Below the pieces are notes generated by a model. The model ran no database searches. It had not been told where the DNA came from and saw nothing but the letters and a program-made list of their open reading frames with translations. Shown one piece after another: positions 7,777-43,355 of a stretch of DNA of 64,000 bases. The translations under genes were made by a program, and so were the position numbers. The stretch covers positions 620,001 through 684,000 of the forward strand of contig NZ_JAGSYD010000002.1 in NCBI RefSeq assembly GCF_025685575.1, given 5' to 3'. Numbering within the stretch: the stretch's first letter is position 1; every line of letters begins with the position of its first letter. Origin of the DNA: Granulicella cerasi. GTDB taxonomy: Bacteria > Acidobacteriota > Terriglobia > Terriglobales > Acidobacteriaceae.

Positions 7777-8202
7777 ATGGCAGGCATGGAGATGGGCCAG
7801 TTCGTAGCTGTGCGGTCACCGCGGCGGCGGTGGAGTGTTGAGGAGCGGCGAAGGATCGTAGAAGAGACGCTGGAGCCTGGCGCATCGGTTGCGCGTGTGG
7901 CGCAGCGATATGGAGTGAACGCGAACCAGGTCTTCGGGTGGCGCAGGCTGTACGAGGGCGGCGGCTTACAAGCGCTGCCGCAGGCCTCCGTTAAGCTGCT
8001 GCCGGTCAGCATCGACGACGTGCCCGAAGCAGCCCAGGCGCAGGTGAGCCCCAGTGCTTCGTCTCGCGGCACGATCCACATCGAACTGCCCGGGCGAGCG
8101 ATGATCAGCGTTGAAGGCGCCGTGGATGCGGCGCTTTGGGACCGATTCGACAGAAGGCGGCTCCGCATCTCCAAGAAAACTCCCTTCGAATGGCGATTTT
8201 GA
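7777..8202 (+). pseudogene. IS66-family accessory protein TnpA, 3' end replaced
   Basis: The N-terminal part is a helix-turn-helix of IS66 TnpA: 'RRRWSVEERRRIVEETLEPG', 'VARVAQRYGVNANQVFGWRR', followed by the usual 'IHIELPGRAMISVEGAVDAAL' region in part. After about base 8135 the sequence changes to residues that do not belong to the family and run into the next open frame, so the natural end is lost. No TnpB or TnpC transposase of IS66 follows. This is the stump of an IS66 element, probably left by the recombination that joined it to the unknown gene downstream. Start codon choice among several nearby ATGs is uncertain. Confidence 0.75.
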
Positions 8203-9821
8203 ATGAGCTTTATAAACGTCCCGAAACAACACAGAAGTTTCTTGCTGAAGCTCTGACGTGGGCGAAGAAGCACGAGAACGTCTTCGACAACCGACTGGAG
8301 TTCGATGTCACCGGGGATTTTCTGACAATGGCGGAAGCAGTCGTATCTACTGCAACGCTCGTGGCGCGTAGTGGTTCGATGGAGCTTCTGGAGGAAGAAG
8401 GCTCCTGGGTGCGGTCCATATTTGAACGAGTGTATGAAGGTGAGGCTGACCCGGTCTATTTGCATCGGGACGGTTTGCGTTTCAATCCACCAGCCATTGC
8501 CTTTGCGGGACAGGTTTTACTAATGCGTCGTTCCCGTCGTGCCGGAGATGAAGACCAACTCCTTCGGTTCGCCTGCGCTGTTGGGTATGGCGCTGCTCAC
8601 GGCTATGGGGCGACCTTACCTCTGATTCAGCAAACCCAGCCCAATCTCACTGCTTCGCTGATGCGCTGTGCTTTTGAAGGAGCGATCAGGCCTGACAACG
8701 CATGGAATATCTCAGAGGAAGAAAAGGCTCAACGGAGCAAACTCCTAGAAGACCGGCTCTCGGAACGTATCCGACATGAACTGAGCTGGCTCAACGGTGG
8801 CGCAAGCGAACCGGCGTGGCCGGCGTTCCCGATCAAGCGCGCAAAGCCTAAACCACCACGGAAGCAAACGCCTTCTCCTGAAACACCTGAAGCTGCCCCA
8901 AAAGAGTTGAGACATGTGCGTGTTGACTATCATCGCGCAGCTTTGTGGCTCAGACATAGCCGTTCACTGCTTGGAAAGACTCCCGCGCCATGGCTGACGG
9001 AGATGATTGAGGCCTACCTGATCTGGACGCAGCAAGCAAACGGATATGGAGGAGATAAACAGGAGCGTTTTGAACGTGGCCCCTCTGAGTGGAATTCCGT
9101 CTACTTTGAAGCTGCAGCCAGATGTATGAAGCACATGGAAGAGGAAGCGTTTGACCAGCGACTCCGCGACTTCTTTGCGGAGCTTCCAGAGGAGCCCTTG
9201 ATGGATACCGTGACGCCGTTTCTACGCAGTGCCGATGTTGGTTATCTTGATTTCCAAACTCTCTCCGTCTCGCAAATGACTAGGGTTCGTGCTTTCGTTA
9301 TGGCGCAACTGCAAAGTACACGCATGTTTACCTGGAACAAGGATCGGGACGAAACAACTGTGACATCAGATATCGCCACTGCGTTTGCAGCGGTTTGCTT
9401 CAATATCTATTACGGTGGCTTTGCTCCTGCAAAATGTTTTGTTCCTCCGAACCTCATTCGAGACACAGACTCGTTTCTGCCTCTTCTTGAAGAGTTCATC
9501 GACGTTTGCCGTTCTCCGTTTTTGACCTTTCTTTATTTGAACTACTTCGAGGTTGCTCCGCATGAAGTTCAGGTGCCATGCGTATTAGGCTGCGCTGAAA
9601 AATGGCTCGAACGGTTTCCCGAGAGCAATCAGTTTTGGGTCGAGTGGAGCGTCGGTCGTCGCATCTGTGCTGTTCTTGTAAAGATTTTGAACGAATCACC
9701 ACAGGCATTCGATGTTGACGCTGTGCGGACACGGCTGGACAGGTTCCTGAGCCATCTAGTGGGCCTCGGTGTCACGGAAGCTCACGAAATGGAACGTCTA
9801 CTGTATAGAGTCGGTGCCTAA
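8136..9821 (+). CDS. Uncharacterised protein, probably the C-terminal part of a larger protein
   Basis: I do not recognise this gene. The frame encodes up to 561 residues, but it opens inside the IS66 stump, and the first ATG that could serve outside it is at 8190 without a clear ribosome binding site. The sequence looks soluble and mostly helical, with a proline- and lysine-rich linker near residues 230-255 ('KRAKPKPPRKQTPSPETPEA') separating two helical parts. There is no signal peptide and no obvious catalytic motif. The lack of an own start and the abrupt junction suggest loss of an N-terminal domain. A large helical C-terminal region of this kind occurs in some multidomain defence ATPases, but nothing here proves that. 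A small membrane-protein frame starts two bases after its stop. Confidence 0.5.
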   Translation: MGPIRQKAAPHLQENSLRMAILNELYKRPETTQKFLAEALTWAKKHENVFDNRLEFDVTGDFLTMAEAVVSTATLVARSGSMELLEEEGSWVRSIFERVYEGEADPVYLHRDGLRFNPPAIAFAGQVLLMRRSRRAGDEDQLLRFACAVGYGAAHGYGATLPLIQQTQPNLTASLMRCAFEGAIRPDNAWNISEEEKAQRSKLLEDRLSERIRHELSWLNGGASEPAWPAFPIKRAKPKPPRKQTPSPETPEAAPKELRHVRVDYHRAALWLRHSRSLLGKTPAPWLTEMIEAYLIWTQQANGYGGDKQERFERGPSEWNSVYFEAAARCMKHMEEEAFDQRLRDFFAELPEEPLMDTVTPFLRSADVGYLDFQTLSVSQMTRVRAFVMAQLQSTRMFTWNKDRDETTVTSDIATAFAAVCFNIYYGGFAPAKCFVPPNLIRDTDSFLPLLEEFIDVCRSPFLTFLYLNYFEVAPHEVQVPCVLGCAEKWLERFPESNQFWVEWSVGRRICAVLVKILNESPQAFDVDAVRTRLDRFLSHLVGLGVTEAHEMERLLYRVGA

Positions 9822-9823
9822 AT

Positions 9824-10062
9824 ATGGTTCCTCGTGCATCTATCCGAGGATTCTTAGGTGTACTGCTCAAAGACACCGGATCGCTTATGTCCGGCTCTCT
9901 CTCAGTGATAGCCGCACTCTTTGCGCACTTCTATGACGCAAGCCATGCCCGGATGGGATTCGGGATATGTGCTGCGATCTGCGCGCTCATTGCTACTTAC
10001 CGCATCTGGGCAACAGAAAGACAGCAACGTATCGCAGCAGAGGAATACCTCGCCGCTCCAGA
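9824..10062 (+). pseudogene. Small two-helix membrane protein, truncated
   Basis: The frame starts with ATG two bases after the preceding stop. It encodes about 80 residues with two hydrophobic segments ('LMSGSLSVIAALFAHF' and 'GFGICAAICALIATYRI') followed by a charged stretch 'WATERQQRIAAEEYL'. This layout (two membrane helices, then a coiled-coil-like tail) is seen in small bacterial proteins whose tail continues into a larger domain. Near 10063 the frame enters the out-of-frame remnant of an oxidoreductase gene, so the natural C terminus is missing; the chimeric frame stops at 10573. It probably formed a unit with the gene before it. Function unknown. Confidence 0.5.
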
Positions 10063-10065
10063 CCT

Positions 10066-10573
10066 CAAAATTGACGACGCTGGAACAGTTCAGCAACATG
10101 ATTGCGCTCAACAACACCGCACTGACGGCCTTATCCAAAGCAGCACTTATGCTCTTCCAAAAGAAGAACACCGGAAGCATCGTCAATATCGGCTCAGGAG
10201 TTGGTTTTGCCCCGTTGCCCATGGTTCCTGTCTATGGTCCCACCAAGGCATACGTGATGCAGTTCACACAGATTCTTCAGCCGCAGGTAGCCGGAACGGG
10301 AATTCGCGTTCAGCTTGTTACCCCTGGCGCAGTGCTGTCGGAAGGATGGGATGTTGCTGGGGCGCTGATCTTGACCCCTTGAACCCTTCCGTCATCATGA
10401 CGACAGAAGATTGCGTGGACGCAGCACTTATGGGACTGGATCGCGGCGAGCAGATCACGGCTCCCTTGCTGGAAGATGAGGCCCTGTTGAGCAACTACGA
10501 AGCTGTCTCTGGAGCTCTGCTGCAAGGGATGTTTCGTGGCACGCCCGCGACCCGTTACAGATCGCGAGAATAA
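10066..10573 (+). pseudogene. SDR-family oxidoreductase remnant, frameshifted
   Basis: The C-terminal two thirds of a short-chain dehydrogenase lie here in two frames. The first frame carries 'MIALNNTALTALSKAAL', 'TGSIVNIGSGVGFAPLP' and the catalytic 'YGPTKAYVMQF' (Tyr-x3-Lys), then reaches a stop at about 10380. The second frame picks up at 'LNPSVIMTTEDCVDAAL' and continues to the stop at 10573, so a single frameshift separates them. The N-terminal Rossmann nucleotide-binding half is absent; the sequence before about 10063 belongs to another gene. The gene cannot make a working enzyme. Confidence 0.8.
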
Positions 10574-20523: not shown

Positions 20524-21522
20524 TCATCGAATCAATCGAAGCTGAATCGGGACTTTCGGCTTGGGACTTGAAGTTTCTTCTCTTGCATGGAGGAAGTTAG
20601 CAAGTCGCTTTTGCTCTGTAGGACTTGCATTACGCAAGATGCTCTTCTGCAAACGCCGGATAATGATCGGAAGCGTCTTCGGATACTTTTCACGACGGCA
20701 AATGATCGCGCTATCGATTGTCCATTCGACATCAATAAGCCTTCTTGTCGTCAGTTCTGGCTCGTGCACTCCGCCCTCACGAACGAGTGCTAAACCATAG
20801 TCTTCGAGGACAAGCATCTGCATTTCTATTGGATGTGATCCGCTGGAATACTCTTCAATGCAAACGCCCGACTGCGCAAGGAGTTCGAGCAGTCGGGCAT
20901 GTGCTTGCGGGTGCCGATCGGGTTCGTAGAAGACACCCAATTTGCCCTGCAAGTCTTTGACCTGAAGGGCAGCATGTTCCGCGAGTGGATTGTCCTTTCG
21001 CATGCAGACAACAAGTTTGTCTTTCCGAAGGCGATCGAGACGTAACTCCGGATGCGTGAAAGGAAGAGTGATCAACGCCGCGTCCAGCTTGCCCTCCAAA
21101 ACTTGTGCGGCAAGGTACACCGTGTCTCCGTGTGCCGAGCGGATTGTACAGTTCGGCAGTAGCTCTTTGTGTAGGGAACATAGCGTTCTGAAAAGCTCTT
21201 GATCGACGAGCGGACTGCACCCAAATCGAATGGTCTCGAGTTCTCCTCTATCGATCGCGATCAGAGCCTCAATCGCTTCGTCGCGAGCTTCCAGAACATG
21301 TTTCGCAAGCGTTATGAAAGCGAGCCCTGATTCGGTTGGATGAATTCTTCCATCCTTCGCCTTCCTATACAACGTGACGGAAGCATTTTCCTGGAACTGT
21401 CTAGCCTGCACGGTGAGGTTTGGCTGCGACGTATGCAGCATCTCCGCAGCGGAGCGAAAGCCTCCGCGCTCAAGAATCTTTAGCAAATACAAGAAGTGAC
21501 GAAACTCAGCCCAATCGTGCAT
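20524..21522 (-). CDS. LysR-type transcriptional regulator
   Basis: 332-residue DNA-binding regulator with an N-terminal winged helix ('FLYLLKILERGGFRSAAEML', 'TSQPNLTVQARQFQE', about residues 10-45) and a periplasmic-binding-like effector domain ('DAALITLPF', 'EMQMLVLEDYGLALV'). It lies between the secretion operon and the alpA-integrase end of the element and is transcribed in the direction of virB2. Near-identical T-N11-A dyads occur upstream of it (21740-21760) and downstream, before virB2 (20454-20474), which suggests autoregulation plus control of the secretion operon. The effector ligand is unknown. Confidence 0.92.
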   Translation of the reverse strand: MHDWAEFRHFLYLLKILERGGFRSAAEMLHTSQPNLTVQARQFQENASVTLYRKAKDGRIHPTESGLAFITLAKHVLEARDEAIEALIAIDRGELETIRFGCSPLVDQELFRTLCSLHKELLPNCTIRSAHGDTVYLAAQVLEGKLDAALITLPFTHPELRLDRLRKDKLVVCMRKDNPLAEHAALQVKDLQGKLGVFYEPDRHPQAHARLLELLAQSGVCIEEYSSGSHPIEMQMLVLEDYGLALVREGGVHEPELTTRRLIDVEWTIDSAIICRREKYPKTLPIIIRRLQKSILRNASPTEQKRLANFLHAREETSSPKPKVPIQLRLIR

Positions 21523-36579: not shown

Positions 36580-36694
36580 GAGCAGAAGGGTATCGCAAGC
36601 GAGCTAAGAGGTATAAACTGATCCGCGAGACGTACTACAGTGGCCTGCCGTTGCTCGGCGGGCCGAATTGTTTTGATTGGGAAGAAGGGTCCAG

Positions 36695-37723
36695 ATGACC
36701 ACAAAGACAGAGACCACCGCCTCGGGCGCACACACTCCAACCGCCGAGCTTCCAGTGACGCTGCACGGGCGCGAACTGACGCCGAACAAGCAGATTCCGC
36801 TGAACCTCGACTGGGTGGAAGAGATTCAGGTAAACACCTCAGCGGTCGAACGGCGCGCCGCGACGATCGGCTCACGCCGCTCGGTGAAGAAGGAGTGGCA
36901 GGTCGCGTGGCTGTTGCGCGCCATCGCCTGCATGGACCTCACGACACTCGCGGGCGACGACTCGGCCGAGCGCGTAAAGCGCCTCTGCGCCAAGGCGCGT
37001 CGACCGCTCGAAGAGAAGATCGTCAACGCGCTGGGCATCGAGAGCCTGAGGCTCACGACCGGCGCCGTCTGCGTGTATCACACGTTTGTGGAGACGGCCG
37101 TGAAGGCGCTCGAAGGCTCGGGCGTGCCAGTGGCCGCTGTGTCGACGGGCTTCCCTGCTGGTCTCGCCCCGCTGGAGACGCGCGTCGAAGAAATTCGCCG
37201 TTCGGTAGAAGCAGGCGCAAGCGAGATCGACATCGTCATCACGCGCTCGCATGTCTTCAACGGCGAGTGGAACGCGCTGTACGACGAAGTCGCAGCCTTC
37301 AAGGAGGCTTGCGGTCCGGCGCACATGAAGACGATTCTCGGCACGGGCGACCTGCTGACGCTGCGCAACGTGGCCCGCGCATCGTGGGTTTCCATGATGG
37401 CGGGTTCGGACTTCATCAAGACCTCGACGGGCAAGGAAGCCGTGAACGCGACGCTGCCGGTCTCGCTGGTGATGGTGCGCGCGATCCGCGACTACGCCGA
37501 GCGCACAGGCATGTCGGTCGGCTACAAGCCCGCAGGCGGCATCAAGACGGCTAAGCAGTCGCTGGACTGGCTCTCGCTGATGAAGGATGAGCTGGGTCGT
37601 CCGTGGCTCGAGCCGTCACTCTTCCGCTTTGGTGCAAGCTCGATGCTCGGCGATATCGAGCGCCAGCTTGAGCACTACGTGACCGGGCGGTATTCAGCAA
37701 CGTATCGGCATCCGTTGGCGTAG
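36695..37723 (+). CDS. deoC: Deoxyribose-phosphate aldolase
   Basis: Cleaves 2-deoxyribose-5-phosphate to glyceraldehyde-3-phosphate and acetaldehyde. 342 residues; the core is DeoC-like: 'MDLTTLAGDDSAERVKRLC', 'VCVYHTFVETAVKAL', 'GASEIDIVITRSHVFNG', 'HMKTILGTGDL', 'SDFIKTSTGKEAVNATLPVS' (Schiff-base Lys in 'FIKTSTG') and 'VGYKPAGGIKTAKQSLDWL'. It has an N-terminal extension of about 70 residues compared with the short 220-260-residue enzymes, as in the longer class. The ATG at 36695 follows GAAGGGT. With the ALDH gene downstream it forms an acetaldehyde-producing and -oxidising pair. Confidence 0.96.
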   Translation: MTTKTETTASGAHTPTAELPVTLHGRELTPNKQIPLNLDWVEEIQVNTSAVERRAATIGSRRSVKKEWQVAWLLRAIACMDLTTLAGDDSAERVKRLCAKARRPLEEKIVNALGIESLRLTTGAVCVYHTFVETAVKALEGSGVPVAAVSTGFPAGLAPLETRVEEIRRSVEAGASEIDIVITRSHVFNGEWNALYDEVAAFKEACGPAHMKTILGTGDLLTLRNVARASWVSMMAGSDFIKTSTGKEAVNATLPVSLVMVRAIRDYAERTGMSVGYKPAGGIKTAKQSLDWLSLMKDELGRPWLEPSLFRFGASSMLGDIERQLEHYVTGRYSATYRHPLA

Positions 37724-37725
37724 GC

Positions 37726-38709
37726 ATGTCCGTCCACATGCCAAATGACGCACCAATGGACTCCCCAAAATCCAAGCAATTGCTTGGATTCCTGTTCCGT
37801 GCGCAAAAATGGGGATTCAATAGATGTTTAGCGCCAGGAGACGAGTGCAAGTCGCATGCGATAAATTCTCACTCAATCCAAAACGCGAAGGTTCTTGACC
37901 TTCTTAGCCGAAATGGTCATGTAAAGATGATCAAATATGAAATGAAGAAAGACGATTTCATCATCGCCTTTCAGGATATCGGCAGGAATCAAGCATCAAC
38001 ATTTGGCGGGTTCTGCTCAGATCATGACACGGAAATTTTTAAGCCCATAGATTTGCAGCAAATAGATGAAGCAAACACCGAGCAACTATTTCTGCTGGCA
38101 TATAGATCAGTGGCGAAAGAGGTCCACTCGTCAATGCAAGCGGCATCTATTTCTCAATCTGCCTATCAAAAACGCGTTACGCTTGGTATCGACAACGGCA
38201 ACGAACCCGAACCAGCAGGAATGATGGCGATTGAACGAATGATGGCGGCCTATAACGCTCATCAATACAAGCTCCTGCTAGATGAAGCCATCGGGCAGGC
38301 AGACTATTCAAGACTCGAGCACATCAGCTTCTGGATAGATCATGCACAACCTAGTTGTGCTGTGAGCGCGTTATTCGATATCGACAAGCAAGCGGTAGAC
38401 ACGGAAGCTCCTTGGGTTGCGATGAATCTGTTTCCTGTCTCAAATTCTAAGAGTTTTGTGCTCTTCAGTTTTCTGCCCGAAGAAGCTCCAAGAGCGAGAG
38501 ACTACCTAAGAGAAGTCGTCTCGGCATCAGGCGACTACCAGAAATATCTCTTGAGCAGATTAGTTATCAAGCATTGCGAGAATTTCGTTGTTGCACCCGC
38601 CATTTTCGACACTTGGAGTCAAGACAAGGCAAAAGATATATGCGAATTCTTTCGCGACACTCTTCGCTTCGATAAAGCAGTCGACAATTCTAATCTTTAC
38701 CTTTTTTAA
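37726..38709 (+). CDS. Uncharacterised protein with Cys/His zinc-like motif
   Basis: 327 residues, no family named. The N terminus carries a probable metal site: 'CLAPGDECKSHAINSHSIQ' (two Cys, two His) and 'FGGFCSDHDTEIF' about 60 residues later. The rest is helical and soluble, with no membrane segment. It lies two bases after deoC and 26 bases before the aldehyde dehydrogenase gene, so it splits what looks like a natural pair. Its DNA is visibly richer in A and T and uses codons (AAA, AAT, TTT, ATA) rare in its neighbours, which points to recent acquisition. Start is uncertain among 37726, 37738 and 37756; none has a clear ribosome binding site. Confidence 0.75.
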   Translation: MSVHMPNDAPMDSPKSKQLLGFLFRAQKWGFNRCLAPGDECKSHAINSHSIQNAKVLDLLSRNGHVKMIKYEMKKDDFIIAFQDIGRNQASTFGGFCSDHDTEIFKPIDLQQIDEANTEQLFLLAYRSVAKEVHSSMQAASISQSAYQKRVTLGIDNGNEPEPAGMMAIERMMAAYNAHQYKLLLDEAIGQADYSRLEHISFWIDHAQPSCAVSALFDIDKQAVDTEAPWVAMNLFPVSNSKSFVLFSFLPEEAPRARDYLREVVSASGDYQKYLLSRLVIKHCENFVVAPAIFDTWSQDKAKDICEFFRDTLRFDKAVDNSNLYLF

Positions 38710-38735
38710 GACCTGTGTATTGCGAGACAAATCAT

Positions 38736-41126
38736 ATGAGCAACAGCATCGTGGAGAAGTACCACAGCATGGAATACGGTCCGGCACCGGAAGACGCAAG
38801 CGAAGTGATCAAGTGGCTCGACGCGCACAAGCGCAGCTTCGGGCACTATATCGACGGCGAGTGGACCAAGCCCGGCAAGGCGACCTTCGCCACCAAGAAC
38901 CCCGCGACCGGCGAGACGCTCGCGACCATCGCCAGTGCCGATGCTACGGAAGTTGACCGTGCCGTGAAGGCTGCTCGTGCGGCTCTGCCTGCGTGGCAGG
39001 CGCTCACCGGGCACCAGCGTGCGCGCTACCTCTATGCGCTGGCACGGCAGGTGCAGAAGCACTCGCGCAAGCTCGCCGTGCTGGAGACGTTGGACAACGG
39101 CAAGTCCATTCGCGAGTCACGCGATATCGATATTCCGCTGGTAGCGCGTCACTTCTACCACCACGCCGGTTGGGCGCAGTTGATCGACGAAGAGTTCCCC
39201 GGCTATGAGCCGTGCGGCGTCGTCGGCCAGATCATTCCGTGGAACTTCCCGCTACTGATGTTTGCGTGGAAGGTCGCTCCGGCGCTGGCTGCGGGCAATA
39301 CTGTCGTGATCAAGCCCGCCGAGTACACGCCGCTCACCGCCATCGCGCTCGGCGAGATCGCCGACGAAATCGGCCTGCCTAAGGGCGTGCTGAACATCGT
39401 GCAGGGCGACGGCAAGACCGGCGCCGCGATCGCCGAACACCCCGGCATCGACAAGGTCGCCTTCACCGGTTCGACCGAAGTGGGCCGCATCATTCGCAAG
39501 GCGACCGCTGCGTCGTCGAAGAAGCTCTCGCTCGAGCTCGGCGGCAAGTCGCCGTTCATCGTCTTTGACGATGCCGACCTCGACTCCGCGGTCGAAGGCC
39601 TCGTGGATGGCATCTGGTTCAACCAGGGCCAGGTCTGCTGCGCAGGTTCGCGCCTGCTCGTGCAGGAGCGAGTGGCCGAAAAGCTCTACGACAAGATCCG
39701 CGCGCGCATGGCGACGCTGCGTGTCGGCTCCCCGCTGGACAAGGCGGTCGACATCGGCGCCATCGTCGATCAGGTGCAGTACGACCGCATCCAGTCGCTG
39801 ATCAAGAAGGGCTGCGACGAGGGCGCGACCTGCTGGCAGCCGGAGATTTCGCTGCCCGAGAAGGGCCTCTTCCTCAAGCCGACGCTGCTCACCGGCGTCT
39901 CCCCTGCCTCCACCGTGGCGCAGGAAGAGATCTTCGGGCCGGTGCTCTCGGCGATGACCTTCCGCACGCCCGCCGAGGCGATTGAGCTTGCGAACAACAC
40001 CGTTTACGGCCTCGCCGCGAGCATCTGGAGCGAGAACATCAACGTCGCGCTCGACGTTGCCGCGCAGGTGAAGGCGGGTGTCGTCTGGATCAACGCGACG
40101 AACGTCTTCGACGCGGCCGCAGGCTTTGGCGGCTATCGCGAATCCGGCTACGGGCGCGAGGGCGGCAAGGAAGGGATGTACGAGTACCTCGTACCGAAGT
40201 GGTTCCACGACGAGGTGAAGGCGAAGCCCGTGCAAGCGCTGCCCGAGCCCGAGGTCGAAACTACCGACGAGCCCGCCGACGCCTTCGGCATCGACCGCAC
40301 CGTGAAGCTCTACATCGGCGGCAAGCAGGCGCGTCCGGACTCGGGCTACAGCTACCCGGTCTATGGTCGCGACGGCAAGCAGGTCGGCGAGGCTCCGCTG
40401 GGCAGCCGCAAGGACATTCGTAACGCCGTGGAGGCCGCTCGCGCCGCCACCAAGTGGGGCAAGAACACCGCTCACGGCCGCGCACAGGTGCTCTACTTCC
40501 TCGCTGAAAACCTTGTGCAGCGCCGCGAAGAGATCGTCGCGAAGCTTGCGCAGTTCGTCGGACCGGAGCAGGCGGCGATTGAGCTCGACTACACCGTCGA
40601 GCGCACCTTCGCCTACGCGGGCTGGTGCGATAAGTACGAGGGCTCGGTCCACAACCCGCCGATGCGCATGGTGACTCTGGCGATGAAGGAAGCCATCGGC
40701 ACCATCGGCATCCTCGCGCCGGACGACGCTCCTCTGCTCGGCCTGATGTCGCTGGTGCTGCCGGCGGTCGCGATGGGTAACACCGTCATCGCCGTCCCGA
40801 GCGAACGCACGGCGACGCTGATGGGCGAGCTCTACCAAGTCTTCGACACCAGCGACCTGCCCGGCGGCGTCGTGAACTTCGTCTCCGGCAAGGCCAGCGA
40901 ACTCGGTAAGACGCTCGCCGAGCACGATGACATCGACGCGGTCTGGAGCTTCCGCGATGAGGCCGCTTCCACCCAGGCCAAGGCGCTCTCCATCGGCAAC
41001 CTGAAGCAGATTTGGACCAACGAAGGCCGTCAGATTGACTGGTTTAACCCCGCCGAGGCCGAGGGCCGCTGGTTCCTCCGCCACGCCACACAAGTCAAGA
41101 ATGTGTGGGTTCCGTACGGAGAGTAA
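38736..41126 (+). CDS. Double-domain aldehyde dehydrogenase, ALDH16-like
   Basis: NAD-dependent oxidation of an aldehyde, probably acetaldehyde from DeoC. 796 residues in two ALDH folds. The first (about 1-480) is complete: 'GQIIPWNFPLLMFAWKVAPA', 'FTGSTEVGRII', catalytic Glu in 'LELGGKSPFIV' and catalytic Cys in 'FNQGQVCCAGSR'. The second (about 500-796) keeps the fold ('GRAQVLYFLAENLVQRREEI', 'IGILAPDDAPLLGLMSLVLP') but shows no equivalent catalytic Cys motif. One active and one degenerate ALDH domain is the layout of ALDH16. ATG 38736 is used; the open frame starts slightly earlier. Confidence 0.93.
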   Translation: MSNSIVEKYHSMEYGPAPEDASEVIKWLDAHKRSFGHYIDGEWTKPGKATFATKNPATGETLATIASADATEVDRAVKAARAALPAWQALTGHQRARYLYALARQVQKHSRKLAVLETLDNGKSIRESRDIDIPLVARHFYHHAGWAQLIDEEFPGYEPCGVVGQIIPWNFPLLMFAWKVAPALAAGNTVVIKPAEYTPLTAIALGEIADEIGLPKGVLNIVQGDGKTGAAIAEHPGIDKVAFTGSTEVGRIIRKATAASSKKLSLELGGKSPFIVFDDADLDSAVEGLVDGIWFNQGQVCCAGSRLLVQERVAEKLYDKIRARMATLRVGSPLDKAVDIGAIVDQVQYDRIQSLIKKGCDEGATCWQPEISLPEKGLFLKPTLLTGVSPASTVAQEEIFGPVLSAMTFRTPAEAIELANNTVYGLAASIWSENINVALDVAAQVKAGVVWINATNVFDAAAGFGGYRESGYGREGGKEGMYEYLVPKWFHDEVKAKPVQALPEPEVETTDEPADAFGIDRTVKLYIGGKQARPDSGYSYPVYGRDGKQVGEAPLGSRKDIRNAVEAARAATKWGKNTAHGRAQVLYFLAENLVQRREEIVAKLAQFVGPEQAAIELDYTVERTFAYAGWCDKYEGSVHNPPMRMVTLAMKEAIGTIGILAPDDAPLLGLMSLVLPAVAMGNTVIAVPSERTATLMGELYQVFDTSDLPGGVVNFVSGKASELGKTLAEHDDIDAVWSFRDEAASTQAKALSIGNLKQIWTNEGRQIDWFNPAEAEGRWFLRHATQVKNVWVPYGE

Positions 41127-41155
41127 CCACTGCGCGGTTACCTCCGGAAATGAAG

Positions 41156-41190
41156 CAGGCGCCTCACTTGAGGCGCCTGTACCCTTTTTT
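41156..41190 (+). terminator. Terminator after the aldehyde dehydrogenase gene
   Basis: Stem CAGGCGCCTC / GAGGCGCCTG with a four-base loop, followed by TACCCTTTTTT on the plus strand. Confidence 0.9.
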
Positions 41191-41348
41191 GACGCCATGA
41201 AACATAGAGTCCAAGGTAACCGCAGGTAACCCGAAAGTAGTAATGTCATGCGCCCCCCGTGCAATGGGGGAAAACAGGGGTAGCCGCTGTAATGAAGGTA
41301 CTCTCTGGAACGGGTTGTCGACGTTCCGTGAGTACGGGTACCCCATCT

Positions 41349-43355
41349 ATGTCGATCGTTTTTACTGTGCAGCACCTCGGTCTCTTCGATTCCTCCATGG
41401 CAGCTCTCGCGCTCCAGCGCGTAGCGGCGTTCCCGCTTTCTGTGGCGACGGTTATTCCGGTTTCGGCAGCTGCTCTTCTGGCCTTCACGCTCGGCTCCTC
41501 GCTGCGTAAGCGCCGCGTGCCTGCAACGCCGGAAGTAGACGCACCTGCACGCATCTCCAAGACGGTAGCGAACCAGCCCGAGTTCCGTTCGACGCTTCAG
41601 AGCGCACCCTTTCCCATGATCCTGACGGATGCCGCGGGAACGATCCTCGAGATCAACGCCCCCGCGCAGCACCTGACGCTTTACACCGCTCCGGAGTTGA
41701 TGGGGCGTCGCAACATCACCCATCTGCACAAGCTTGAGGAGTTGCGCTCACGCGCTCAGACGCTCCAGTCCTCGAAGCGCTCCGCGCGCTCGGATTTCGA
41801 AGTGCTCTGCCAGGCGTCCGAGTGCCCCGAGCAGGACGGTCGCCGCGAGTGGACCTACGTACGCAAAGACGGCACCGAGATCCCGGTACAGGTGGCTGTT
41901 TCACCGCTCCGCGACAAGTCCGCCGAGATCACCGGCTACATCGTTCTCCCCTTCGACGCGACGGAGCGCAAATCTCTCACCGAGTCGGTAGAGTTCATGT
42001 CGAAGCATGATGCGCTGACGCGTCTGCCGAACCGCGCCTATCTGAACTCGCTCCTCGCTGGCGCGCTGGAAGACGCAAAGCGCGACGAAACGCCGCTCAC
42101 GCTCTTCCTGATCAACCTCGACCACTTCAAGCGCATCAACGACTCGCTCGGCCACTCCGAAGGCGATCAGCTTCTGATCACCGTCGCGAACCGTCTGCGT
42201 GAATCCGTACGCGCATCGGACTTCGTAGCGCGCACCGCCAGCGATGAGTTTGTAGTTGTCGCGCGCAATCTGGGTGAGCCGTCTGCTGTGGCGCACTCTG
42301 CGAGCCGCTTGCATGCCGCACTCTCGCAGCCGTTGACGATGGCTGGCCACGAGATCAACATCACGGCGAGCATCGGTTCATGCACTTTCCCCGACTGCTC
42401 CTTCGATACGTCATCGATCGTCCGTCACGCGGATCTCGCCATGCACGCAGCCAAGCGCCGCGGCGAAGGCAACTTCCACGCCTTCAACGAGCAGATGCGT
42501 GAAGACCGCGCCGACCGCCTCGCGCTGGAGGCTGAACTCCGCTACGCGATCGACCGCGACGAGATGGAGATCTACTACCAGCCGCAGGTGAACACGCGCA
42601 CGCGCACCATCACCGGCATGGAAGCCCTGCTGCGCTGGAAGCATCCGAAGCGCGGCATGGTGCCGCCGCTGACCTTCATCCGTGCTGCCGAAGAAAGCGG
42701 CCTCATCGTTTCCATCGGCGAGTGGGTGCTAGAGAACGCTTGCCGCGAAGCGCGCGCGATGCAGATCCAAACCGGTCGCCGACTGACGCTCGCCGTCAAC
42801 CTTTCGCCCCGCCAGGTCTTGAGCGATGGCCTCTTCGACACCGTGCAACGCGCGCTGCTGAAGAGCGGCCTGAACCCGCGCGACCTCGAGCTCGAGATCA
42901 CAGAGAACACCTTGATGATCAGCTCGGCGGAAACGCTTTCAACGCTGGCTCGCCTGCGCGAGCTCGGTGTGCGCCTTGCTGTCGATGACTTCGGCACCGG
43001 CTTCTCGAGCTTCCAGTACATCCTCGAGTACCGCGTGGACCGCCTGAAGATCGATCGCAGCTTCATCACAAACTGCGCTACGGACGTGAACGCTGCGGCC
43101 ATCGTTCGGGCTGTCGTCGCAATGGCACACGGCCTCGATATGACCGTAGTCGCTGAAGGCGTGGAGACCGAAGAGCAGCTTGCGTTCCTGCTGCGTCGTC
43201 GCTGCGAAGAAGCGCAGGGCTTCCTCTTCGGCAAGCCGCAGCCGATCCACATCCTCTACGAGCAGATGGCGCAGCTGACACAGGAATCGGAAGAGCTGCA
43301 GATCGTACCGATCACGGAGAGCTCCGACGAAATCCCGATCGCGAAGCCGAACTAA
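41349..43355 (+). CDS. PAS-GGDEF-EAL protein with degenerate GGDEF, probable c-di-GMP phosphodiesterase
   Basis: About 668 residues: one N-terminal membrane segment ('LSVATVIPVSAAALLAFTLG'), a PAS domain ('SAPFPMILTDAAGTILEINA'), a GGDEF domain and an EAL domain. The GGDEF signature reads 'ASDEF', so diguanylate cyclase activity is unlikely. The EAL domain has its key residues: 'MEALLRWKHP', 'NLSPRQ', 'ITENTL', 'AVDDFGTGFSS', 'LKIDRSFI' and 'VAEGVETEEQ'. It is therefore likely to hydrolyse c-di-GMP, with the GGDEF part perhaps sensing GTP. The start is uncertain: ATG 41349 is placed just before the membrane segment, but ATG 41292 or 41259 are open too. Confidence 0.92.
   Translation: MSIVFTVQHLGLFDSSMAALALQRVAAFPLSVATVIPVSAAALLAFTLGSSLRKRRVPATPEVDAPARISKTVANQPEFRSTLQSAPFPMILTDAAGTILEINAPAQHLTLYTAPELMGRRNITHLHKLEELRSRAQTLQSSKRSARSDFEVLCQASECPEQDGRREWTYVRKDGTEIPVQVAVSPLRDKSAEITGYIVLPFDATERKSLTESVEFMSKHDALTRLPNRAYLNSLLAGALEDAKRDETPLTLFLINLDHFKRINDSLGHSEGDQLLITVANRLRESVRASDFVARTASDEFVVVARNLGEPSAVAHSASRLHAALSQPLTMAGHEINITASIGSCTFPDCSFDTSSIVRHADLAMHAAKRRGEGNFHAFNEQMREDRADRLALEAELRYAIDRDEMEIYYQPQVNTRTRTITGMEALLRWKHPKRGMVPPLTFIRAAEESGLIVSIGEWVLENACREARAMQIQTGRRLTLAVNLSPRQVLSDGLFDTVQRALLKSGLNPRDLELEITENTLMISSAETLSTLARLRELGVRLAVDDFGTGFSSFQYILEYRVDRLKIDRSFITNCATDVNAAAIVRAVVAMAHGLDMTVVAEGVETEEQLAFLLRRRCEEAQGFLFGKPQPIHILYEQMAQLTQESEELQIVPITESSDEIPIAKPN

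Follow-up and report, generated by a model that had tools for sequence, protein, structure and literature searches.

An atypical gene between deoC and an aldehyde dehydrogenase gene

The stretch of DNA analysed here, i.e., a window of 64,000 nt from Granulicella cerasi, contains an accessory gene of 327 codons (37726..38709, + strand), which encodes a protein of 327 aa, fills the gap between two metabolic genes and is called here the focal gene. The left flank is deoC (deoxyribose-phosphate aldolase; 36695..37723, + strand, with an in-frame TTG start at 36677), whose best PDB match is 5eky (E 1.7e-43), and the right flank (38736..41126, + strand) encodes a two-module aldehyde dehydrogenase (ALDH; PDB 6mvr, E 8e-276). 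The spacing given in a preliminary description of this DNA agrees with the coordinates: the deoC stop codon ends at 37723, the focal gene begins 2 nt after it, and 26 nt then separate the gene from the ALDH ATG at 38736. The region from the deoC stop to the ALDH start (37724..38735, without strand), which differs as a whole between close relatives, is referred to as the slot. The start codon of the focal gene is unsettled, with further in-frame ATGs at codons 5 and 11, and the translation contains the peptides CLAPGDECKSHAINSHSIQ and FCSDHD.

Across the focal gene the GC content drops from about 0.64 to 0.45 (gene GC 0.453). When the 45 window ORFs of at least 120 aa were compared, a set that was chosen mechanically by length and that includes at least one shadow frame (39252-41729, minus strand), the focal gene had the lowest GC3 (0.479, against a median of 0.716) and also ranked first in synonymous-codon distance, so that the deviant base and codon use first reported for it was borne out. 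The ORFs with the next-lowest GC3 (8136-10573 and 20524-21522, 0.51-0.54) are possibly foreign too. The gene had also been described as a clean insertion into a metabolic pair, and indeed the 120-nt stretches at its two junctions have no direct or inverted word of at least 7 letters in common. No excess of promoter-like (2 vs 1.3 in shuffled sequence) or terminator-like elements (4 vs 2.9 in shuffled sequence) was observed around the gene.

The deoC-ALDH gap across the genus and beyond

Among the 28 genomes of the genus, deoC was found in 26, and ALDH followed deoC in all 17 genomes that were compared. The gap between the two genes was 33-131 nt in 11 of the 26 genomes, 366 and 415 nt, with no ORF of 100 aa, in two (G017 and G012, respectively), and held at least one ORF of 100 aa or more in the other 13, the contents being mostly unrelated to one another. 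Eleven of these 13 occupied gaps were measured together. In all of them the longest ORF was co-directional with the flanks, in 9/11 it began 2-15 nt past the deoC stop, and in 8/11 it covered 0.91-0.99 of the gap (a smaller share in G027, G015 and G025); the GC content of the occupied gaps was 0.45-0.53, as against 0.60-0.67 for deoC. The other two occupied gaps, of 1681 nt (G019) and 2601 nt (G018), contain several ORFs each and were partly profiled. The occupants that could be named with Pfam were LprI (G009), a PIN toxin with a MazE-type antitoxin (G025), a RibD_C protein (G019) and an HTH protein (G018), while those of G006, G027, G007, G015, G016, G018 (143 aa), G001 and G013 reached no curated Pfam cut-off. 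Membrane and secreted proteins are also among the slot contents, i.e., not all of them are defence-like. In addition, G010 and G015 (loci L010 and L013) have a AAGAAAAGCAAGAGCAAC-type stretch in common just before ALDH, which is perhaps a dispersed repeat.

Outside the genus, 23 loci were taken as the best-scoring places in a sample of 200 genomes rather than as a full count, and one of them (L121) was left out since it lies at a contig edge. The gap was 5-231 nt in 19 of the 22 measured loci; in the remaining three (L132, L140 and L142) it was 463-748 nt and contained one of 100-213 aa among its ORFs, which in L140 encodes an EthD domain.

Turnover at the slot and a possible mechanism

The genomes nearest to that of the window (G000) are G006 and G009, with 93% amino-acid identity in deoC and 94 and 96% in ALDH. 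The slots of these three genomes hold three unrelated genes, namely the focal gene, a membrane-protein gene and LprI, and the mutual best match between the gap contents is no better than E 0.19. Homology breaks at the deoC stop and restarts at the ALDH ATG, and position-by-position DNA identity among the three amounts to 0.81-0.90 in the final 300 nt of deoC and to 0.89-0.90 in the initial 300 nt of ALDH. No word of 7 nt or more was common to the junctions in G000 and G006, and one 8-nt inverted match was found in G009. The gap upstream of deoC (aMan-deoC) is near-constant, with 116, 117 and 119 nt in G000, G006 and G009, respectively. The gap from ALDH to GGDEF measures 136, 1804 and 746 nt in the same genomes (the GGDEF match being partial), so the deoC-ALDH gap is not the sole variable site. 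In the window the gap from ALDH to the next gene, which looks by eye like a GGDEF/EAL gene, lies at 41127-41258.

In a deoC tree, the group of seven genomes that includes the window genome (support 100/100) has an occupied slot in 7/7 cases, with six kinds of content, and the short gap as opposed to all other states requires two changes over 26 genomes, when G017 and G012 are counted as not short. Some occupants recur. The focal family is present in G000 and G022, the sister of the latter (G013) carrying a different gene, and the membrane-protein family is present in G006, G015 and G025 at 35-38% identity; within the 28 genus genomes both families were found at the deoC-ALDH slot only. LprI of G009 gave a single additional match, a weak one located elsewhere in G000 (E 7.9e-4). 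The slot of G025 is two-layered, with a membrane-protein gene that matches in two pieces and different frames, followed by the genes for the MazE-type antitoxin and the PIN toxin. Since relatives have differing and recurring occupants, these behave like alleles of the slot. The G022 homologue is just 44% identical to the focal protein, and therefore the data do not demonstrate a recent exchange of the focal gene itself. As a control, 200 kb around the locus (G000 and G006; 160 kb in G009) yielded 13 and 16 usable orthologues and six co-directional pairs each, of which 2/6 and 1/6 differed by more than 250 nt; deoC-ALDH itself was excluded, because the simple ORF caller had picked a shadow frame of ALDH. 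These pairs are too few for a ranking of gaps, so that the hotspot claim rests on the turnover of the slot itself. We conclude that the deoC-ALDH gap is, with very high probability, an exchangeable slot whose present occupant is the focal gene.

For hotspots without mobile elements, recombination between homologous flanks has been proposed as a mechanism (PMC5635113, in the part available to us), and we infer that flank recombination would be the simplest mechanism for exchange at this slot as well. Incoming genes would arrive together with their flanks from other strains, and homologous recombination within deoC and ALDH would swap them, the slot occupants carrying no recombinase of their own. 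Being placed in line, mostly 2-15 nt behind deoC, the occupants would share the transcript of deoC. The slot resembles the hotspots described in the available part of PMC5635113 in the turnover of unrelated accessory genes between two core genes, in its recurring occupants and, tentatively, in junctions that were repeat-free where examined. It differs from them, as far as that part describes them, in that it lies within a co-directional gene pair and is mostly a single-gene slot, with the ORF 2-15 nt behind the stop in 9/11.

A broad, sporadic and mobile protein family

The gene had been called an orphan, a claim that did not hold, since relatives were found in many phyla, on plasmids, on viral contigs and in E. 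coli. Within a set of 101 genomes (the window genome and its relatives), four had a match: the window genome, G022 (same genus), G059 (same family) and G080 (same class). The G022 homologue sits at the same deoC-ALDH site, and there too the GC content of the gap (0.49) is far below that of deoC (0.65). Within the genus, the family was found in 2/28 genomes (the window genome and G022), instead of being present at the same site, with matching codon use, in most relatives. A family profile matched 4/396 genomes of the phylum, one of them weakly, over 41 positions.

When an alignment of four sequences was used as the query against GTDB species genomes, with STFxGFC[SG]xH or EQ[LC][FY]LL[AG][YF]R as retrieval patterns, 114 stretches encoding relatives were obtained, the best 80 of which were 22-43% identical. 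The named members among the 26 placed in a tree belong to Pseudomonadota, Chloroflexota, Bacillota, Bdellovibrionota, Planctomycetota, Actinomycetota and Acidobacteriota, and the window and G022 proteins form a pair (SH-aLRT 81). Three of the loci (L036, L037 and L038, titled Parvibaculum sp., Stappia sp. and Parvibaculum indicum) have an identical printed protein start and equal neighbour sizes, and in each of them an in-frame stop interrupts the relative at one shared codon position, which might reflect a shared contig, mis-binning or recent transfer.

Of 72,556 plasmid records, 30 contained a relative, which in six of them matched 80% or more of the query. Further relatives were detected at 29 loci of viral contigs and in 2 of 50,697 phage records, both of which are unannotated Listeria phage contigs of 23,813 bases. 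With the relative from the plasmid collection as a DNA query, 92 of 5,426 E. coli genomes gave a match, in 89 cases over at least 80% of its length. Four of the E. coli regions were read: in two, the relative is flanked by the late-control gene D and by ogr, within a P2-like prophage, and the other two have it near cobT, on an island that also carries repL and H-NS-like genes. The available part of PMC8628076 does not mention the D-ogr gap. One E. coli "plasmid" with a relative (L114, CP061244.1) is 1.4 Mb long and carries uvrC, pgsA and P2-like tail genes beside it; it looks like a chromosome piece filed as a plasmid.

The public labels seen for relatives are "hypothetical", "SEC-C domain-containing" and "YecA family", and among the best-ranked matches in the open-licence literature no paper was recognised as treating the family. 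The E. coli and Lactococcus proteins, which are labelled SEC-C/YecA by annotation only, were retrieved with the window protein and belong to the same core family; they have an N-terminal SEC-C motif (PF02810), and the window protein does not. This motif is present in 34 of 69 aligned members and lacking in 35, the window protein included. The focal family is broad, undescribed, mobile and sporadic.

A conserved core and a predicted zinc site

The alignment of 69 members comprises the window protein, L002-L004 and 65 of the 80 GTDB loci, loci with in-frame stops and near-copies having been excluded. Eight residues are invariant in 69/69 sequences (C34, H49, T92, C97, H100, D101, F105 and R127), and two more are near-invariant, C41 being Cys in 67/69 and N286 being Asn in 68/69. 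The retrieval patterns cover part of the core, so that the search itself accounts for some of the conservation seen within them; C34, C41, H49, D101 and F105 lie outside these patterns. The conservation of C34, C41, H49, C97, H100 and D101 in relatives is far beyond chance, and the probable zinc site that the preliminary description had proposed matches these invariant residues, together with C41. The presumed metal site consists of a first half, C34-x6-C41-x7-H49 (37825..37872, + strand), and a second half, S91-T92-F93-x-G95-F96-C97-x2-H100-D101 (37996..38028, + strand), the former taken from the alignment and the latter from both the alignment and the structure model. C34 and C41 are separated by 4-9 residues, C41 and H49 by seven in 67/69 sequences, and C97 and H100 by two in all 69, with 40-57 residues between the conserved His and the second metal pair. 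The fixed core of the family can be written as C-x(4-9)-C-x(6-7)-H ... T-F-x-G-F-C-x2-H-D ... F ... Y-R. The pattern C..C..H..C..HD was present in the forward frame at 28 of the 29 viral-contig loci, none of which had been used to derive it; since these loci were fetched with FxGFC[SGN]xHD, the first half of the pattern alone was tested independently.

An AlphaFold2 model built from the 69-row alignment reached a pLDDT of 89.6 and a pTM of 0.88, and the zinc domain modelled alone a pLDDT of 84.1. The model orders the core as strand 46-49, helix 53-60, hairpin 65-86, strand 92-96 and helix 98-110, followed by two long helices (118-152 and 163-190), strands between 198 and 249, and helices up to 312. 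From these data the focal protein would, in all likelihood, possess a zinc-binding core, in which C34, C41, C97 and H100 may hold one zinc ion in a treble-clef-like arrangement. H49, D101 and R127 might form an active site, laid out as in nucleases of the His-Me type (HNH / endonuclease VII), H49 and D101 being possible catalytic or metal residues, whereas the two-helix hairpin (118-190) and the alpha/beta domain (196-327) would serve recognition.

Comparison with known families and folds

The pattern of endonuclease VII consists of a Cys pair, a strand with the His, a further strand, and a helix that opens with C-x2-[C/H] and a further metal-type residue. The focal family shares this order of parts (Cys pair, His strand, strand, helix) with His-Me finger nucleases such as HNH, endonuclease VII and YbcO/DUF1364. 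As in those enzymes, H49 is located on a strand (46-49) after the first ligands, and C97-x2-H100 is located at the start of helix 98-110. In the available part of PMC4999995, the catalytic His of His-Me nucleases is placed on the primary hairpin of the treble clef, an arrangement that the fixed residues of the focal family resemble in their order and kind. Unlike in His-Me nucleases, the first Cys pair of the focal family is separated by x4-9 rather than x2, 40-57 residues lie between the His and the second pair, and no sequence or fold match to these enzymes was found.

Matches were sought at several levels. The window protein matched nothing in Pfam, NCBIfam or PADLOC, the sole yield of the profile libraries being PHROG 24516 at E 0.17. 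The shared core of the family had no Pfam match either; 15 Pfam families were matched across the 69 members, none of them HNH. In PHROGs, five members matched phrog_24700 (best 4.3e-5) and one matched phrog_18195, both of unknown function. PADLOC-DB 2.0 contains no model that matches the window protein, and the recurrent matches of E2-type, E1-E2 and PDC-S12 models in 28-34 of the 69 members are read as presumable SEC-C matches, because these counts approximate the number of members with that motif. Against PDB sequences, the family profile hit SecA zinc tails, at E 0.09 or above, as well as unrelated chains, and these hits were rejected.

Fold searches gave a similar picture. With Foldseek, none of the 721 PDB matches listed for the whole model and none of the 123 listed for the zinc domain reached E <= 0.001, nor did any of 568 matches in BFVD. 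With VIA-align, Z stayed below 2 in all 201 chains compared with the zinc domain, and the rows of up to Z 6.6 extend mainly over the two-helix hairpin (116-193), which was considered a common arrangement. Kinship with HNH proteins was also tested directly, by hhalign, and was not supported (Prob 0.4 against HNH_2 and 0.1 against HNH, with small sets of 5 and 11 sequences from a single genus). Endonuclease_7 (PF02945) was not found in the 28 genus genomes or the controls, which therefore offered no comparison set for it. As the direct HNH tests were negative, the focal family is not placed among the HNH nucleases.

Neighbours of the relatives

The neighbourhoods of 81 of 82 loci were readable (L101 was dropped), and the bulk scans covered 150 of the 221 candidate neighbours. 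The largest recurrent cluster is of serine-recombinase type and occurs at 7/81 loci, from which it follows that the family is mostly solitary; no neighbour family exceeds seven. A UvrD-type cluster was found at five loci, three of which are copies of one contig, and topoisomerase IV genes of Psychrobacter at four. Within the first 25 of 308 families, the bulk PADLOC scan gave three matches to the LmuB model and two each to GajA, GajB and a methyltransferase, and within the first 25 of 104 families the bulk Pfam scan gave four to Resolvase. Ten neighbours picked by hand yielded six strong matches, one weak match at the tail and three without any. AbiLii and AbiLi adjoin L004, which belongs to the same taxonomic family as the window, a type II methyltransferase gene lies upstream of L041 and Old upstream of L097, and a UvrD helicase (GajB-like) and LmuB are encoded near L036; the relative at L036 has an in-frame stop, and L035 combines related neighbours with an open frame. 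Genes of AbiL (AbiLi/AbiLii), Lamassu (LmuB) and OLD thus adjoin some relatives, but none of these models matches the window protein and none recurs among the 69 members. The neighbourhoods have no matched control, so that this defence company is suggestive only and provides leads rather than statistics.

Function of the focal gene

The reading that we prefer, at a probability of roughly 0.45, is that the focal gene encodes a solitary, mobile, zinc-containing effector of defence type, in a slot whose contents would be swapped by flank recombination. Its likeliest task would be to protect the host, on its own, from phages or other mobile DNA through cleavage or binding of nucleic acid. Judged from sequence, defence is the best single guess, and the initial suggestion of a solitary defence or toxin gene appears plausible. 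The separate parts of this reading differ in strength: a role of the family in conflict between mobile elements and their hosts is slightly favoured, and nuclease chemistry of the focal protein is a distinctly more tentative proposal. Still less probable is the most far-reaching version, in which the focal gene would be an early representative of a class of immune effectors, each encoded by a single gene, that combine a His-Me-like catalytic zinc core with an otherwise new fold and occur alike on chromosomes, plasmids and P2-like prophages, and in which an operon-internal slot of this genus would swap immune and other accessory genes as alleles by recombination in deoC and ALDH.

The alternative that survives best, though we consider it improbable, is that of a moron serving prophages or plasmids, which would exclude rival phages, counter host defence or tune the host, the chromosomal copy being a leftover. 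The D-ogr position in P2-like prophages (2 of the 4 E. coli regions read), the two Listeria phage records of equal length, the 29 viral-contig loci and the serine-recombinase type as the largest neighbour cluster (7 loci) are consistent with it; however, many relatives are on chromosomal contigs and have no recurrent partner, the focal gene itself sits in a metabolic pair, and no phage gene was recognised by eye among the window ORFs. Moreover, superinfection exclusion itself counts as defence. A growth inhibitor with a non-nuclease, zinc-dependent mechanism and abortive infection as the outcome seems somewhat less likely again. It would fit a gene that is solitary and sporadic (4/101 relatives; 4/396 in the phylum, one of them weak), and toxin-related genes do occur at the slot (the MazE-type antitoxin and PIN toxin of G025, the HTH protein of G018), but the relatives have no recurrent antitoxin-like partner, the sole HTH cluster among their neighbours comprising three loci.

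Position and orientation make co-expression of the focal gene with deoC and ALDH likely, as would be expected of a zinc protein that senses or regulates their products as an accessory to deoxyribose/aldehyde metabolism. Such a role is nevertheless very unlikely, given that 24 of the 26 deoC-bearing genus genomes do without the focal gene, that the two genes are 5-231 nt apart at 19/22 loci of other genera and that the relatives elsewhere adjoin unrelated genes. Finally, a chance AT-rich frame or a decayed, functionless insertion, for which the foreign composition and the unsettled start codon could speak, is scarcely credible in view of the intact frame, the eight residues invariant in 69/69 and the confidence of the model (pLDDT 89.6, pTM 0.88), the conservation refuting this reading for the family, while the window copy itself might have lost its function.

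The interest of the family is that a fixed metal core present in many phyla, on plasmids and in prophages has matched no curated core model and no solved fold, and that the public records seen name its members after an accessory motif (SEC-C, YecA) or call them "hypothetical". Should the family prove to be an immune effector, an entire set of solitary genes could be interpreted. The slot also offers a search route, namely the comparison, between close relatives, of single-gene gaps in tight core pairs, in genomes that lack mobile-element marks.

A separate observation concerns four Psychrobacter genomes (L068, L094, L102 and L104), in which the relative lies 81-164 nt downstream of a gene for topoisomerase IV / gyrase subunit A, a position that is possibly another fixed slot.
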